From positions 62,001 through 126,000 of the forward strand of contig JABLXE010000009.1 of NCBI GenBank assembly GCA_013178225.1: 64,000 bases of DNA, given 5' to 3'. The notes under the pieces are model-generated. The model was not told the DNA's origin, made no database searches, and saw nothing but the letters and a program-made list of their open reading frames with translations. Position 1 is the stretch's first letter, and every line of letters begins with the position of its first letter. Below, one piece after another: positions 48,366-62,303 of the stretch. Made by a program: the position numbers and the translations under genes. The stretch comes from Methanotrichaceae archaeon (GTDB lineage Archaea; Halobacteriota; Methanosarcinia; Methanotrichales; Methanotrichaceae).

Positions 48366-48744
48366 TTGAAGAGAATTGTAGTCGCTCTGGCGACATTTGT
48401 GGTCTTAGCCCTTGCCGGCCTTCAAGCAGCGACCGCCTGCTGTAACCCGGATATGCCGGTGCTCCCTGAAATAAGCTGTGCTATGCCAGAAATTCCGGTA
48501 GCTCCGATGGGCGTTTGCTGTCCGAATGAGCCGCTTCTCCCAGAGATGGATTGCGGTTTGCCAGAAATTCCGGTAGCTCCGATGGGCGTTTGCTGTCCGA
48601 ATGAGCCGCTTTCTCCCAGAGATGGATTGCGGTTTGCCAGAAATTCCGGTAGCTCCGATGGGCGTTTGCTGTCCGAATGAGCCGCTTCTCCCAGATATGC
48701 ATTGCGGCATGCCCGACATCCCCATAGTACCGGTGGGCTGCTAA
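48366..48744 (+). pseudogene. Secreted Cys/Pro-rich tandem-repeat protein with a one-base frameshift
   Basis: TTG start with AAGGAGG 8 bases before it. Signal peptide (IVVALATFVVLALAGLQAATA), then about three units of 25 residues, PEIPVAPMGVCCPNEPLLPEMDCGL. At 48610-48612 one extra T (CTTTC where the other copies have CTTC) shifts the frame and ends the reading early. Removing it restores the third copy and a final unit ending ...PIVPVGC at the stop 48742-48744, about 124 residues. High Cys and Pro content suggests a disulfide-linked surface protein. Confidence 0.75.
48485..48710 (+). repeat. 75-base tandem repeats
   Basis: Nearly identical copies beginning GCCAGAAATTCCGG start at 48485, 48560 and 48636 (75 and 76 bases apart), each coding for 25 residues; the third is slightly diverged at its end. 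The difference of one base is the inserted T. Such arrays are prone to slippage and to copy-number change. Confidence 0.85.
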
Positions 48745-48981
48745 GGCAAGGATGAAGCTGTAGCATCATTTTTTTAATACCTGTTTTAGAGCATTTTTAC
48801 TAACCCCAAATTTAGTCCTTGCCTTATAAGTGCTATTCAATTTAAAGCACAGCGATTTTGGAGCGGTTTTTAGGAAGCCTCTCTAGAATTGATTAATAGT
48901 TGATGCAACCAATATGAGTTAAAACAAAAATTTTAAAATTAAAAAATTTTAGAATAATTAAAGGGTTGAAGCTAAATATCG

Positions 48982-49560
48982 TTATTTTGTGCCGTGCTCA
49001 GTGGATTCGTTGAGATACCTCGATCTAATGCTGCTTAATTCCTCGTATGCAAGCTTGTAATGCTCCAAACTTTGGTTGTGGCTGATTTTAGTTCCATTGA
49101 GGTATCGCTGGTTATCGGTCTCGAACAATTTAGAGATGTTCCACAGGAATAGTCTTAGATTGAGCAACGCCAGGAGAGTGTTATTATAGGCACTTTCATA
49201 TAGCTCCGGTGGTCTGTTCGCCTCAACCTTAGATGCAGTATATGACGTCAATATTAGCGTGGACGTGGAACTATCCAGAGCATCTCTGCTCGAGATGGAT
49301 TTATTCACATAATCCTTCAGGATGCGCTCTGAAAAGTTGTAGTCCTCGGCATATTCAGCCAACGAGATGTATAAGAAATTGCCGTAAGTGAAATTGGCAT
49401 CCACATCGCTTACCCGTCCTGGATCTGTCGCAATATTCCCTTTAGTAGAAGTGGATTCAATATTTGCAGCAAATGAAGAGATGGTCATGGCTACCATGGC
49501 CAATATTGCTAGCAGCATAACCGATGAAGCACCAAGTGGTTTCATGCAAATAACGCTCAC
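48982..49560 (-). CDS. Secreted protein, unknown; last gene of the five-gene operon
   Basis: 192 residues with a signal peptide (MLLAILAMVAMTISSFAA). The mature part is helical with several Asn-glycosylation-like N-x-S/T sites and no Cys. No family recognised. The GTG start overlaps the preceding gene's TGA by 4 bases (GTGA), so it is coupled to it; ATG 49545 is the alternative. Codon use is more AT-rich than in the flanking housekeeping genes. Confidence 0.65.
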   Translation of the reverse strand: MSVICMKPLGASSVMLLAILAMVAMTISSFAANIESTSTKGNIATDPGRVSDVDANFTYGNFLYISLAEYAEDYNFSERILKDYVNKSISSRDALDSSTSTLILTSYTASKVEANRPPELYESAYNNTLLALLNLRLFLWNISKLFETDNQRYLNGTKISHNQSLEHYKLAYEELSSIRSRYLNESTEHGTK

Positions 49561-50477
49561 ATTTTAATATATGATGCGGGATTGTGCGCATCAAAAATAC
49601 ATTCAATGTCCCAACAGTAAGGCTCTTTCACAAATAGCGTATCACCTGCACAGCAGCCCAACCCGAATTCGAGGCTGGTCAGATTGAAGCGGCTCCGTCT
49701 CGATATCGTTCGATCGATCTTGAAGCTGCCAATATAAACCTCATCCGATAGTCGGTCGCTCGACCTATATCCAAGCCGTGAATACTTATCGGATATCGAC
49801 AGGACACGGAATGCGGTGGCAGAATTCTTCATCTCCCTTTCATCAACCTGGCCTGGAGCTATATTGACCCGAACAATGGCATTGGAATACACGCCTGCGT
49901 ATCTGACCGCCTTGGACAAGTTGGTAGCGTAATAGTTAGTACATATTGAATCTTCATCACTTTTATAATTGTTTCTGCTATAGATCCCCTCTCCAACATA
50001 GGCTGTATCGTCTTCATAGCGCAGCATGATGGGCAGGCTTTCGTTTATTTCCACATAATAATGCTCTTGGGGCTGCGTTGTAGGTAAGTCAACAAAGTCA
50101 TCCTCGACCGTGGTATTGTTCAGGGGTCCAGCATCATATTCTTCATTAATATAAATCCAATTGAATTTGGCTGTTAGATTAACTATATTTTTATTGGCCA
50201 TCCTACCTTCTTTGGTATAGGTATTCTCTTTGAGCCCTACACCACCAAATCCCGGCATATTGACATACTTTGAAGAATTTCCTTTTCCAGAGCAGTCACT
50301 ATCAGCCGTGAAAGTCATTACCTGAGTGGTTTGACTTCGCCCCCATTGGGTCCCGTCCATATCCACGTAAATGTTGTAGCCCACTTTCGCTTCACATGAA
50401 GAACTTAAAATAATAATTAAAATAAACAAGGATATTGCGGAGCTGCGCAATATCCCGATCCCTCCCAGTTGCACCAT
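49557..50477 (-). CDS. Secreted protein with Cys-rich C-terminus, unknown
   Basis: 306 residues. Signal peptide at about 1-29 (AISLFILIIILSSSCEA). Contains VDMDGTQWGRSQ, GDYF-like Tyr-rich strands and a C-terminal LEFGLGCCAGDTLFVKEPYCWDIECIFD with several Cys. No family recognised. It is 18 bases after the 383-residue protein gene and overlaps the next gene, so it sits within the operon. Confidence 0.65.
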   Translation of the reverse strand: MVQLGGIGILRSSAISLFILIIILSSSCEAKVGYNIYVDMDGTQWGRSQTTQVMTFTADSDCSGKGNSSKYVNMPGFGGVGLKENTYTKEGRMANKNIVNLTAKFNWIYINEEYDAGPLNNTTVEDDFVDLPTTQPQEHYYVEINESLPIMLRYEDDTAYVGEGIYSRNNYKSDEDSICTNYYATNLSKAVRYAGVYSNAIVRVNIAPGQVDEREMKNSATAFRVLSISDKYSRLGYRSSDRLSDEVYIGSFKIDRTISRRSRFNLTSLEFGLGCCAGDTLFVKEPYCWDIECIFDAHNPASYIKM

Positions 50478-50495
50478 CTCATCCGACCTCTCGAA

Positions 50496-51647
50496 TTATC
50501 TAGTAATCTCATAATACATATATAACATTTTTGGATTATCTCCATATCCGAGAGGAGTCAGGTGACTTGGACCGGCGACGTTATCTGAGAGACCATCTGC
50601 TTTGCCTTCTATCGCAAAATCGATATCCCTGTTGCCGTTCACTGCCTGGATTACGATCAAATCGTTAGCTGTACTTTCATCACTGTTTACTAATGTATTC
50701 CAAATATATTGTACCGGCTCGTCAGGACGGTTTCCGTAAGCATCGTATCCCGTCTCTAGCCAGGCATTTGTGATACAGTTTACGCCGCTGTGCCGCATTT
50801 GAATCATCTGTGTGAAATCGCTGTATTCGTCTTGGGTAACGGTTCCCTGGCCGCTAGATCGCAGCTTATCCGCTGCATTATTGATCGTCGCTTGATATCT
50901 GCTCGAATCGGTTTCAATCCATTCGAGCACTGAAGCATGTTGGTTGTAATATTCTGCAGTGCTTGCTCCCTGTTCGAAGGCATAGGTGACATCCGTCTTG
51001 GGAGCGGTTCCCAGACCAGTGTTGAAGCTCTTCTCTGCATGAATTGTCGTTTCCGCATCAGTTGTTAGGGATGTGCCAAACGGACCATCTACAGATCGGA
51101 CGACTATGTTATCGGCCAGATGGCCTAGCCCATCCAGCAAGTCAGCAGTTGCGCTACCTTGCAGGGCATTGGTGACAATTTTCGCGCTGTTAACATATTC
51201 AACGCTATCAACAACTACATCTTCGTCCACGGATCCGCCATTGGTAAAGTATCGCGCATTAGTTGAGCCATCGGAGAGGCTATGATCTATCGTAATATAG
51301 TCGCTGGCTCTGAATCCGGTAGCTAGACTCTGTCCGTAATTGAATTCTTTTTCCACCTCGGCATTAAGTTGCGAACCGAAGGTGCTTCCCTCTCCATGAG
51401 CCATAATGCGGCTCGAAAAGATGCCTTTCTTGCCAACATCTGACAATGACGCATCGGCGCTGGCGAAGAGGGAGTCCTGGTAAATGCTGACCTGATTTGC
51501 ATAATCGACGTTTTGAAGATCAATGCCCTCGGAGATATCTCCACCTTCCGTATAATAAGCATGAGATATTCTAATATCTCCTGCAGCTATGCTCACCACG
51601 AAAAGGGAGGCAAATAAGACCAGAAGCCGCCTAGCGTTGACGGACAT
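50496..51647 (-). CDS. Secreted protein with three ~100-residue tandem repeats
   Basis: 383 residues. Signal peptide ends near AAG. Residues 30-130, 131-230 and 231-330 are tandem repeats: their starts read AYYTEGGDISE, ARYFTNGGSVD and AEYYNQHASVL, and each continues with a D..Y.N/Q..I segment at about +20. The repeats are Asp/Ser/Thr-rich, typical of beta-rich extracellular proteins. The last 60 residues differ. It begins one base after the stop of the previous gene. Confidence 0.7.
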   Translation of the reverse strand: MSVNARRLLVLFASLFVVSIAAGDIRISHAYYTEGGDISEGIDLQNVDYANQVSIYQDSLFASADASLSDVGKKGIFSSRIMAHGEGSTFGSQLNAEVEKEFNYGQSLATGFRASDYITIDHSLSDGSTNARYFTNGGSVDEDVVVDSVEYVNSAKIVTNALQGSATADLLDGLGHLADNIVVRSVDGPFGTSLTTDAETTIHAEKSFNTGLGTAPKTDVTYAFEQGASTAEYYNQHASVLEWIETDSSRYQATINNAADKLRSSGQGTVTQDEYSDFTQMIQMRHSGVNCITNAWLETGYDAYGNRPDEPVQYIWNTLVNSDESTANDLIVIQAVNGNRDIDFAIEGKADGLSDNVAGPSHLTPLGYGDNPKMLYMYYEITR

Positions 51648-51648
51648 T

Positions 51649-52275
51649 TCAACTACCTCCTATTATAATAGTCTCTTCTTCACCCCAATTGCATCTCACG
51701 CCGAGGTCTTCATTGCTCTCTGAGAAATCCATCTTGCAGCCAGTAGAAAAGCCGATCCCATTGTCGTCACAATAATTGCTCAGCTCTTCTAGATCCTGAT
51801 CAGGCAATAACTCCAGCAACGAGCCGATCTCGAAGCTATCAAGGTCCAGATCATCGGGGAACTGCAGAGACGTTTTCCATTCAACATCAGGAGAGCCAAG
51901 TTTGTTGGCGCTAATGGCAATGGTCCCGTCATGATTCAAGACTATATTGGAATTATTCGGCAGAGTCAGAACATTGGTAATCTCCAAACCGGTGGTGTAA
52001 AGCGTACCGCTCTCGTCCACAAGAGTAAGAAATGCGGAACTGGTCATTGATACAGAAAGAACATCAGTAGCAGCGATCTTTGCATCGTAAACCTTAGTTA
52101 TGCCTGAATCATCAATTCCTAGATACTTCGTCATATCTGAGTAGACGGTTAAGTCATCTCCACCATCTACAAGAGCCGTCAAATCATCATTAGTTTTCCA
52201 TTGATCAATGCCAGCTACGCCGGATCCACAGCACAAGATGAATGCGACTCCCACCAATAGTGCAATTTCCTTCAT
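51649..52275 (-). CDS. Secreted acidic protein, unknown
   Basis: 208 residues from ATG 52275, with GGAGGAAAT just before it. Signal peptide MKEIALLVGVAFILCCGSGVAG. The mature protein is acidic, with repeating LTxxD and D-rich strands, and ends with four Cys-containing segments (YCDDNGIGFSTGCKMDF...RCNWG). No family recognised. It is the second gene of the operon, 70 bases after the curlin-like gene. Confidence 0.65.
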   Translation of the reverse strand: MKEIALLVGVAFILCCGSGVAGIDQWKTNDDLTALVDGGDDLTVYSDMTKYLGIDDSGITKVYDAKIAATDVLSVSMTSSAFLTLVDESGTLYTTGLEITNVLTLPNNSNIVLNHDGTIAISANKLGSPDVEWKTSLQFPDDLDLDSFEIGSLLELLPDQDLEELSNYCDDNGIGFSTGCKMDFSESNEDLGVRCNWGEEETIIIGGS

Positions 52276-52345
52276 ATTTCCTCCAAATTTGTAAACATTT
52301 CCTGGGGAAAATCCCACCTAATCATCAATCCCGTCCTTGATAGCC

Positions 52346-53275
52346 TCACAGATCGGTGACTGAAGAGGACTCCTGGTAGATAGTGCCATCAGTAAGCTCG
52401 TTTCCGTTTCCATTCAGTGAAATATCATAAGATGCAGAATTTCCGTTGCCCAGTATTGATGTCGATTCTGCAATATACTGGATCTGAGTTGCATTCGCAG
52501 TCAGGCAATTCCGATTAGCCGTCATCATCGACGATTGTGAGACGTCATTTTGGTTGCCGGTAACAGAAGAAATCTCATCGACCACCTGTTTCATCCTTGA
52601 ATCAACGAGTGAGTTATCTTCGGCAATCTGATCAATTTCCTGGCAAATGTTGTTTTCGCTACCCAATGTGCCGGCATCTTCGTAGGCTTGCTGCCAAACT
52701 TGCGAACCGGTAAGGCGGTTATATGCAGAATCTTGACCAATGCGCTGTTCAACCGTGTTGTCGTTTCCCACCAAGCAAGTGGCTTTGATCAGAGAGAACT
52801 GAATAAGATCGCTCATTGACAATGCGTTATTATACGAACCTGCAAAAGTGCTCTGAGATATTTTATTATTGTTCCCTGCTACCTCAGCCTTTTGTGTTGC
52901 TTCCTGAGCCAGCCCGGACATGATTAGACAATTCCTGTAGGCCTCCATCATCAGCTCTTGCTCCACATGATTGCCGTTGCCGGTAGCATTTCCAACCATT
53001 ACGCCAACTTGAATGATGCTTGATGGTGCATCCTCCGTTCCCACTAAGTCGTTGTCATTGGCGTACAAACCAGCTACTTGTCCAACATAATTGTTGTTAC
53101 CATCAACAAAGGCAACTGCATCAGTTACCTGAGCGATGAAGACGTCCCCGGTAATTGTATTACCCTCTGCTTCTTGATGTATCTCAACATAGACTTGATT
53201 GCCGTTACCTGTTGCTGATGCTGAGGATATCAAAATCATCAGGCCTACAGCTATCATCGCTAATCGATCATTCAT
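52346..53275 (-). CDS. Secreted curlin-like repeat protein, amyloid candidate
   Basis: 309 residues with a signal peptide (IAVGLMILISSASA). A GNxNxV/IxQ motif recurs at residues 23, 59, 99, 134, 170, 205, 240 and 276, that is, every 35-36 residues (one gap of 40), with a weaker N-x-L half-unit between. The Gln/Asn/Gly ladder resembles the curlin (CsgA) and other beta-solenoid amyloid repeats. First gene of a five-gene minus-strand operon of secreted proteins. Export, assembly and polymer state are inference. It could also be an ordinary beta-solenoid adhesin. Confidence 0.75.
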   Translation of the reverse strand: MNDRLAMIAVGLMILISSASATGNGNQVYVEIHQEAEGNTITGDVFIAQVTDAVAFVDGNNNYVGQVAGLYANDNDLVGTEDAPSSIIQVGVMVGNATGNGNHVEQELMMEAYRNCLIMSGLAQEATQKAEVAGNNNKISQSTFAGSYNNALSMSDLIQFSLIKATCLVGNDNTVEQRIGQDSAYNRLTGSQVWQQAYEDAGTLGSENNICQEIDQIAEDNSLVDSRMKQVVDEISSVTGNQNDVSQSSMMTANRNCLTANATQIQYIAESTSILGNGNSASYDISLNGNGNELTDGTIYQESSSVTDL

Positions 53276-53751
53276 AATTTGCCTCCTATTGGCTTCCCCC
53301 AGTAGAGATAACAGACCAAGCTCTTTAGTAATGTCAGAATTAATTTGCTCTGATATCTAATAAAAGGTTATGAAGAAGAATTCAGAAAACAATGTCAAGA
53401 ATGAGCTTAAGTATTTTAAGTTTGAACTGCAATTGCGGAGCATACATTCTAATGTTAATGATGGTGGCTCCAATGATCGAAACTTGAGATGGATTATACG
53501 CTTAATGATATCGGCAAATGAATTTTTGAAATATATCAAATTGCCAGAATACGGCGCGGATCAATTTGTTCATTGAGATAATGGTATCTAAATATTTTAT
53601 CCGGTTGTTTCTGATCATACATTCGATAAACTTTTATCGGTTGATAGATCTAATGAATATTGCTGAGTTTGTACAGGTAGTGCCTGATTGCAGCATTTGC
53701 CATTTGGCAAACAGAACGTTATGATCAAAATTTAAAAATGGAGCAGGGATT
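53276..53751. other. AT-rich divergent spacer between the secreted operon and the first winged-helix gene
   Basis: 476 bases. A 68-codon frame at 53370-53576 has no ribosome site and no family match; I do not call it. Two perfect hairpins, CGATAA-ACTT-TTATCG near 53625 and TTTGCC-ATTT-GGCAAA near 53695, lie close to the regulator gene. They may be binding sites or transcript ends. The operon promoter probably lies in the right part of 53276-53400. Confidence 0.5.
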
Positions 53752-54000
53752 ATGAAAAGAAGTAGGCACATGATAATCTCAGAAATCTTGAATATATGTT
53801 CAAATGGTGCGAGTAAGACCAAAATAGTATACCAAGCGAATCTAAATTTCAGGACGGTCAATCCATATATAGATCTTCTCATGAAGAACGATCTAATAAC
53901 GGTTAAGCAAGGATCGACTTTAATATACGAAACGACCGATAGAGGTCTTGTGCTTTTGGAAAACTTTAAGCAGATCAATAATGAGCTTACTGGAATCTGA
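53752..54000 (+). CDS. Small winged-helix regulator, copy 1
   Basis: 82 residues. MKRSRHMIISEILNICSNGASKTKIVYQANLNFRTVNPYIDLL is a typical archaeal one-domain winged helix (COG3432-like). The TVNPYID segment is the recognition helix and ITVKQGSTLIYETTDRGLVLL the wing. Paralogue of the gene at 54308. Its place beside the secreted operon suggests a link, not shown. Confidence 0.8.
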   Translation: MKRSRHMIISEILNICSNGASKTKIVYQANLNFRTVNPYIDLLMKNDLITVKQGSTLIYETTDRGLVLLENFKQINNELTGI

Positions 54001-54307
54001 TATCAATCACCCAACAGCACTGACCGATATTGAGATTATCTCTCAATACTTGATTGCATTTAAGGCGAATACTCAATTGGCTTCGCTTTTGCATTTGTTC
54101 TACTTTTCCAAAGAGCAATATGCTGTCTAGAAGGTCGGGCACGGAATTAGCTCAGTATTATAACACCTTACTTTTAGTTCGATAGACTTATATGGTCTTG
54201 TAGATCTTAACAAAATTGCTCGTAAAAGGAAAAATAATCCTGAGCCGTCAATCCACGGTCCAGAGAATACGAATAATCAGAGGCTTTTTGCGGAAAAGGA
54301 GATGGGC
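54001..54307 (+). other. Spacer between the two winged-helix genes
   Basis: 307 bases, AT-rich. A stretch near 54140-54190 with TTAGCTCAGT recalls the D-arm of a tRNA, but there is no matching T-arm or acceptor pair, so no tRNA is called. No other feature is supported. A small open frame overlapping the end of copy 1 is not convincing. Confidence 0.5.
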
Positions 54308-54583
54308 ATGAAGCGAAGCAAGGACATGATCATTTCGCAGATTCTGGATATATGCACGACAGGTGCGAGCAAGACCAAGATAGTCTATCAAGCCAACCTC
54401 AATTTTAGAACAGTCAATCCTTATCTAGAACTCCTAAGCAAGAACAACCTGATTGAGACAATCTGTGGCCCGATCACGATCTATAAGACGACTGGCAAAG
54501 GCATGAAGATGCTGAGAGAATTTAAAAATATACAGGAAGAGCTGCCTGAATTGTATGAGGGGGCATCCACCAAAGATAAATGA
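54308..54583 (+). CDS. Small winged-helix regulator, copy 2
   Basis: About 91 residues (or 93 from ATG 54302). MKRSKDMIISQILDICTTGASKTKIVYQANLNFRTVNPYLELL is nearly identical to copy 1 through the DNA-binding helices; GASKTKIVYQANLNFRTVNPY is unchanged. The wing differs (ETICGPITIYKTTGKGMKMLREF) and a C-terminal tail is added. Shared recognition helices suggest the two bind the same or similar sites. GGAG lies close before the ATG. Confidence 0.85.
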   Translation: MKRSKDMIISQILDICTTGASKTKIVYQANLNFRTVNPYLELLSKNNLIETICGPITIYKTTGKGMKMLREFKNIQEELPELYEGASTKDK

Positions 54584-61997: not shown

Positions 61998-62303
61998 ATG
62001 GAATTTTGTTCGCAATGCAAGAGCATGATGATGCCCAAAGACGGCATGTGGGTGTGCAGGAAATGCGGCCACAAAATCCCCCGCGACTCCGGCGAGAAGA
62101 TGGTGAGCAGAACCGAGCAGAAACCTCGCGAGGTACCCGTCCTGGAGGGCAATATCTCCCTTCAGCCCACCACCAATGCCCGATGTCCGGCCTGCGATAA
62201 CGGCACTGCCTACTGGGAGATGAAGCAGACCAGAAAGGCCGATGAGCCACCCACATTGTTCCTGACCTGCACCAAATGCGGGAACCGCTGGAGAAAATAT
62301 TAA
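61998..62303 (+). CDS. Transcription factor S (TFIIS/RpoM-like)
   Basis: 101 residues. Two zinc ribbons: CSQCKSMMMPKDGMWVCRKCG near 4-24 and CPACDNGTAYWEMKQTRKADEPPTLFLTCTKCGNRW near 63-98. The second ribbon has TRKADEPPT, where the acidic D-E pair stimulates RNA cleavage by stalled RNA polymerase. The start is ATG 61998 by the TATA box. It precedes the PCNA operon by about 200 bases. Confidence 0.95.
   Translation: MEFCSQCKSMMMPKDGMWVCRKCGHKIPRDSGEKMVSRTEQKPREVPVLEGNISLQPTTNARCPACDNGTAYWEMKQTRKADEPPTLFLTCTKCGNRWRKY

Follow-up and report, generated by a model that had tools for sequence, protein, structure and literature searches.

What might a methane-producing archaeon that probably lives within a protein sheath build with an operon of five exported proteins belonging to no recognised family? 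The question is raised by a 64,000-nucleotide stretch, analysed here in its entirety and referred to as the window (positions 62,001 to 126,000 of contig JABLXE010000009.1, assembly GCA_013178225.1), from a Methanotrichaceae archaeon that forms a separate genus among the genomes compared and whose genome comprises 2.98 Mb in 28 contigs. A first-pass annotation had described the operon as a candidate extracellular amyloid and, should the host be a Methanothrix, as the sheath or a second surface fibre. The host does belong to the Methanothrix family, which includes Methanosaeta sp. PtaB.Bin018. Comparisons of protein families lead us to favour, with modest confidence, a switchable, secreted and sheath-associated extracellular protein polymer as the operon product, rather than the sheath itself. 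A more specific proposal, to which we would give somewhat less than an even chance, is that a fixed core of two of the proteins, P3 and the sheath-type P4, displays an interchangeable amyloid subunit, which is curlin-like in some lineages and is MspA in M. thermoacetophila. The operon genes are as follows.

52346 to 53275, minus strand: P1, 309 residues, exported; proposed polymer-forming subunit
51649 to 52275, minus strand: P2, 208 residues from ATG 52275, exported; conserved in the close operon form only
50496 to 51647, minus strand: P3, 383 residues, exported; core family
49557 to 50477, minus strand: P4, 306 residues, exported, with seven cysteines and seven N-glycosylation motifs; divergent member, by sequence, of the sheath-protein superfamily
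48982 to 49560, minus strand: P5, 192 residues, small exported protein with eight N-glycosylation motifs

The five reading frames (53275 to 48982) and their gaps of 70, 1, 18 and -4 bases from P1 to P5 agree with the first-pass annotation, the first gap being counted to the P2 start at ATG 52275, which follows a GGAGG by a few bases. Each protein begins with a strongly hydrophobic stretch, as had been claimed, and hydropathy revealed neither a second membrane segment nor a C-terminal anchor in any of P1 to P5; export signals were called throughout from hydropathy alone, without SignalP. The claim that none belongs to a known family also held, with no Pfam or NCBIfam family matched by any of the five. 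Searches of PDB, NCBIfam and PHROGs returned nothing usable apart from a weak PHROGs tail-fibre match of P2, and a search of a contig collection gave no match for P1 and one locus for P4. Five exported-type proteins are encoded in one transcription-like unit, with a P3-P4 core behind an exchanged leading gene.

The sheath connection resides in P4. When a profile of 16 P4-type proteins was aligned by hhalign with a profile of 17 main-type sheath (SH) proteins, the match extended over 241 columns (probability 98.8, E 1.2e-16) and scored 119, whereas none of 40 trials with shuffled columns exceeded 16.4; the alignment took in the C-terminal ExYxGxFxIxK...CC region. Single P4-type proteins also matched the SH model unaided (8.6e-17 at locus L160 and 7.7e-9 at L013), and the P4 profile found SH genes in many genomes, with matches in 24 of the 394 genomes of the phylum. 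Narrow P4 profiles did not match single SH proteins, and among profile comparisons the homology emerged only with broad P4 and main-type SH alignments; P4 matched two other SH-cluster types weakly, as the main SH type itself does for one of these, and P2 and P3 showed no match to SH proteins. P4 further resembles the SH proteins in being exported and in having 306 residues, within their range of 150-350. On this profile evidence, P4 is a divergent member of the SH superfamily. The possible sheath link raised by the first-pass annotation thus gains support, through P4 and not through P1, the protein to which it had pointed. Characterised SH members have a core of two β-sheets of six antiparallel strands and polymerise edge to edge into amyloid-like β-arch rings (PMC11576556, PMC10593813). 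At one locus (L161), the P4 gene and a canonical SH gene overlap. We also observed P4-type genes adjoining very large repetitive exported proteins (2607 residues at L061:3-7826; 801 residues at L059:9857-12262).

Canonical SH genes were sought in a sample of 41 Methanotrichaceae genomes and about 390 genomes of the phylum (394 in the phylum-wide P4 and SH counts), in which the species names of relatives were inferred from genome features such as gene order and protein mass. The published SH genes Mthe_0667 and Mthe_0668 (PMC11576556) are matched in placement by putative SH genes lying about ten genes before the Mthe_0677 position in an M. thermoacetophila-like genome. They form a trio at 701.8-704.6 kb, putatively Mthe_0666 to Mthe_0668, and the MspA gene of this genome lies at 1,154.5 kb. 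One putative SH type occurs in all 41 family genomes, with 7 copies in the host, and the main multi-copy type in 21 of 21 genomes, with 24 copies in the host.

The gene order that the first-pass annotation had proposed to look for in relatives does recur within Methanotrichaceae. Besides the window, the close operon form is found in few genomes: at a second site in the host (L011:5868-11056), where a 716-residue curlin-like protein is followed by P2, P3, P4 and P5; in Methanosaeta sp. PtaB.Bin018 (L014, same contig as L047), where curlin-like proteins of 797 and 311 residues precede P2 to P5; at L013, with two P5-type genes, a rhodanese, two curlin-like proteins, P2, P3 and P4; and in a genome in which P1, P2 and the start of P3 lie on one contig (L012) and P4 and P5 on another (L159). 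P5 occurs in 10 of the 41 family genomes. In more divergent operons, P3 and P4 stand behind other exported proteins (L052, L053, L055, L160, L161 and L163), two of them, L052 and L055, from other families of the phylum. The P3 homology to these operons is strong (E 2.4e-13, score 98.5 against a shuffle maximum of 17.8), the host P3 carrying an additional internal unit of about 110 residues. The first gene of L055 encodes a short curlin-like protein; in L163 the corresponding slot is taken by an N-rich repeat protein. By sequence similarity, P3-P4 is thus a recurrent core in several Methanotrichaceae genera and other families, and the leading slot holds differing repeat proteins, often curlin-like. 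The patchy distribution is in part due to draft assemblies. Directly upstream of the second host operon lies a gene for an exported matrixin-like metalloprotease (L011:3702-5153; PF00413, just above cut-off), possibly a processing enzyme.

A similar exchange of leading genes is suggested by MspA (Mthe_1069), an amyloid which, according to the cited papers, was isolated from purified M. thermoacetophila sheaths. Its gene ranks with the most highly expressed surface genes (PMC10470525), yet a 2024 survey discounted the protein, regarding it as probably misidentified or as a secondary component. We assigned one genome to M. thermoacetophila PT on two grounds: the calculated mass of its MspA-like gene product, 60.9 kDa, equals the published MspA mass (PMC6242892), and its S-layer-duplication gene sits at the expected Mthe_0677 place. 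In this genome, the operon at L222 consists of MspA (L222:4522-6249), a second exported repeat protein, a rhodanese and a P4-type protein (3.3e-10 against the P4 model); a congener (L232) has MspA-like, second and P4-type genes in the same order, with no rhodanese detected. The rhodanese of the MspA operon is 46% identical to that of the curlin-like operon at L013, and the same epimerase gene adjoins both kinds of operon. In another genome (G015), the second gene and a P4-type protein lie next to the epimerase without MspA. These observations on the MspA operons support a reading of the first gene as an exchangeable subunit. A stricter version, in which MspA operons occupy exactly the site of P3-P4 operons, was weakened by the finding that P4-ending operons lie directly upstream of the epimerase in four congeners and MspA operons downstream, in a glycan island, in two genomes. 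MspA relatives occur in 2 of the 41 family genomes, and none was found in the host. The related rhodanese-domain proteins (L013:5377-6303 and L222:7842-8678) were also observed to have a hydrophobic N terminus.

P1 itself had been called curlin-like on the basis of eight GNxNxVxQ repeats spaced 35-36 residues. There are eight repeats, with GxxN at residues 23, 59, 99, 134, 170, 205, 240 and 276, but the strict motif fits six of the eight and one of the spacings (36, 40, 35, 36, 35, 35 and 36) is 40. An N-x-L/I motif lies 13 residues after the last N of every GxxN, and the 35-residue period scored 0.06, above all 200 shuffles (maximum -0.09). P1 is therefore an exported protein with regularly spaced G, N and Q repeats. 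The pattern stands, and kinship with curlins was not detected: P1 did not match the Pfam family Curlin_rpt (PF07012), for which the E. coli control was positive, and this family had no match across the 41 family genomes. The minimal curlin repeat QxGxxN occurs eight times in a relative (G035) and not at all in P1, and no family of the csgE/F/G type was found among P1 to P5, the rest of the genome not having been searched for them. By these comparisons, P1 is curlin-like in pattern only and has no detectable curlin relative.

The same archaea hold a second curlin-like family of exported proteins of about 240 residues, with very regular VVGxNNxVxQxxxQxAxGNxIxQSAANA repeats and 51-94% identity across Methanotrichaceae (L205:1369-2097, L203, L200, L197, L199, L207 and, on contig 23 of the host genome, L218:1153-1866). 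It likewise matched neither CsgA/CsgB nor the Pfam curlin repeat and, in the two genomes examined, lies near the same GTPase-like gene. P1 with its close relatives matched this family (E 1.2e-12, score 88.9 against a shuffle maximum of 19.9), although profile comparisons of repeat proteins may overstate kinship, the column shuffle controlling composition and not repeat register. The host also encodes a solitary P1 paralogue (G000:C22:393067-393957; L010:8056-8991) that is 36% identical, contains 6% cysteine and has no P2 to P5 nearby.

Three further genes flank the operon.

53752 to 54000, plus strand: winged-helix protein of the HTH_45/Sso10a type, 82 residues, divergent from the operon; candidate regulator
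54302 to 54583, plus strand: second winged-helix protein of the HTH_45/Sso10a type, 93 residues
48366 to 48743, plus strand: Cys/Pro-rich repeat gene converging on the operon, with a frame break in its third 75-base repeat

Both divergent winged-helix genes had been recognised by the first-pass annotation, and both proved to be of the HTH_45/Sso10a type, with 65% identity to each other. Proteins of the Sso10a kind are DNA binders that serve as transcription factors or chromatin proteins (PMC4941522). Relatives of the two window proteins occur next to 3 of 17 related operon regions (L160, L162 and L055), and none occurs in 29 other regions with a combined length of 445 kb; small as the numbers are, this favours a functional link between regulator and operon. 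The convergent Cys/Pro gene exists as described, but its frame is not intact: the 75-base repeats are spaced 75 and then 76, and reading continues in another frame to about 48743, owing either to mutation or to an assembly error. It was not seen beside other operon copies, and its membership of the operon is doubtful. The guanine-cytosine (GC) content is 45% in the operon and 36% in the regulator spacer, against 55% in the window, and the low operon value is compatible with recent acquisition.

Taken together, the homology of P4 to SH proteins, the ring polymerisation of the latter and the P4-type end of the MspA operon point to a sheath-associated polymer. P1 would be the interchangeable, fibre-forming subunit, with stacked two-strand repeats that may work in a curlin-like manner, and by analogy could act as MspA does. 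P4 may join or cap the sheath hoops and tie P1 to them, or co-assemble with the hoops, while P3, and P2 in the close form, might serve as minor subunits, nucleators or adaptors linking P1 and P4, and P5 might help assembly. All operon proteins would be exported through Sec, and, since archaea have a single membrane, could do without a pore of the CsgG type. The operon may be turned on and off by the divergent Sso10a-type proteins. Methanothrix filaments form anaerobic granules and contact electron-donating partners through the sheath surface, and the product could alter this surface in adhesion, granule building or partner contact.

Several results weigh against this reading. The case for the host operon is a genomic one, and the SH family was identified by gene position, mass and distribution, not by accession match. 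The SH profile matched, among the 394 phylum genomes, Methanotrichaceae and three other families, and the SH proteins of Methanospirillum did not appear among its matches. Profiles did not demonstrate P2 homology beyond the close form; the divergent operons have a similar-sized exported protein in the P2 slot. P1 is not homologous to MspA, whose operon has no detectable P2 or P3, and the P1 profile scored 14.7 against CsgA/CsgB, below the shuffle maximum of 17.2. The structure prediction that the first-pass annotation had proposed gave, with AlphaFold2, a predicted local distance difference test (pLDDT) score of 33 for mature P1 from a single sequence, and mature P4 from two sequences reached 28.5, both uninformative as to the fold.

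Of the competing explanations, an independent curli-like extracellular fibre unrelated to the sheath, in which P4 is a nucleator or base sharing only an SH ancestor, is the most serious, although we consider it unlikely. The curlin-like pattern of P1 and most of its close-operon relatives, the solitary paralogue lacking the other genes and the further conserved curlin-like family of these archaea are all consistent with such a fibre; it accords poorly with the sheath-protein type of P4, with the canonical SH gene overlapping P4 in one genome and with the P4-type end of the operon headed by MspA, which the cited papers describe as isolated from sheaths. Large differences in the leading gene among close relatives, and the patchy distribution, could also reflect variable surface adhesins or proteins for self-recognition or virus evasion whose leading gene turns over by diversifying selection. 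We regard this as improbable given regular short repeats without adhesin domains and the linkage to a ring-polymer superfamily.

That the operon is the main sheath locus of its host fits the sheathed host family and the SH-type P4, yet the host has many putative SH genes elsewhere, canonical SH genes occur in 41 of 41 family genomes and the close operon form is present in few, so that this explanation was rejected as very improbable. We attach equally little probability to a virus-derived SH-like cassette, comparable to proteins postulated to serve egress in viruses that infect sheathed archaea. SH-like proteins have been reported in such viruses (PMC11576556), and the low operon GC (45% against 55%) and patchy distribution would suit such an origin; however, no P1 or P4 relatives were found in IMG/VR within reach of a pattern search, PHROGs gave only the weak P2 hit, and the location is chromosomal with conserved gene order. 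The first-pass interpretation as a whole is partly supported: the sheathed host family, the recurrence of the operon, the SH membership of P4 and the P4-type end of the MspA operon speak for it, while the main sheath locus and curlin kinship find no support.

The sheath-associated polymer, if correct, bears on how sheath rings are assembled, anchored and varied. Operons pairing an SH-type protein with P3 and a swappable repeat protein, MspA among them, name candidate sheath accessory factors, and the P3-P4 operon would open a first way to study how sheaths might be diversified or extended. The modular system, if true, would be the first case of a sheath-type subunit with a conserved gene context, and it would account for a protein, MspA, that is abundant in the sheaths of one species yet absent from most relatives. 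The operon would also be an archaeal example of curlin-like repeats for which no curlin ancestry is detectable.

Compared with known systems, P1 resembles CsgA and CsgB of curli in its regularly spaced G, N and Q residues, in a repeat length of 35 against 34 positions in the Pfam curlin model and in a repeat number that differs among relatives; it differs in matching neither Curlin_rpt nor the CsgA/B profile, in being archaeal and in the lack of a csgE/F/G-type family among P1 to P5. Dueholm et al. 2012 mention an archaeal protein with curli-like repeats (PMC3521004), which shares with P1 its archaeal origin and regular repeats and may belong to the separate curlin-like family (alignment A15) rather than to that of P1. 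MspA (Mthe_1069) is similarly exported, repeat-rich and at the head of an operon with a P4-type end and the same epimerase neighbour, and its operon has a rhodanese in common with one curlin-like operon, but it shares no sequence similarity with P1 and is confined to 2 of 41 genomes, the host not among them. The SH proteins of Methanothrix and Methanospirillum (PMC11576556, PMC10593813) are the closest parallel to P4, an exported protein of 306 residues with clear profile homology over 241 columns; whereas the 2024 survey reported SH genes to be without conserved genomic context, P4 represents a divergent branch with a recurrent P3-P4 context.

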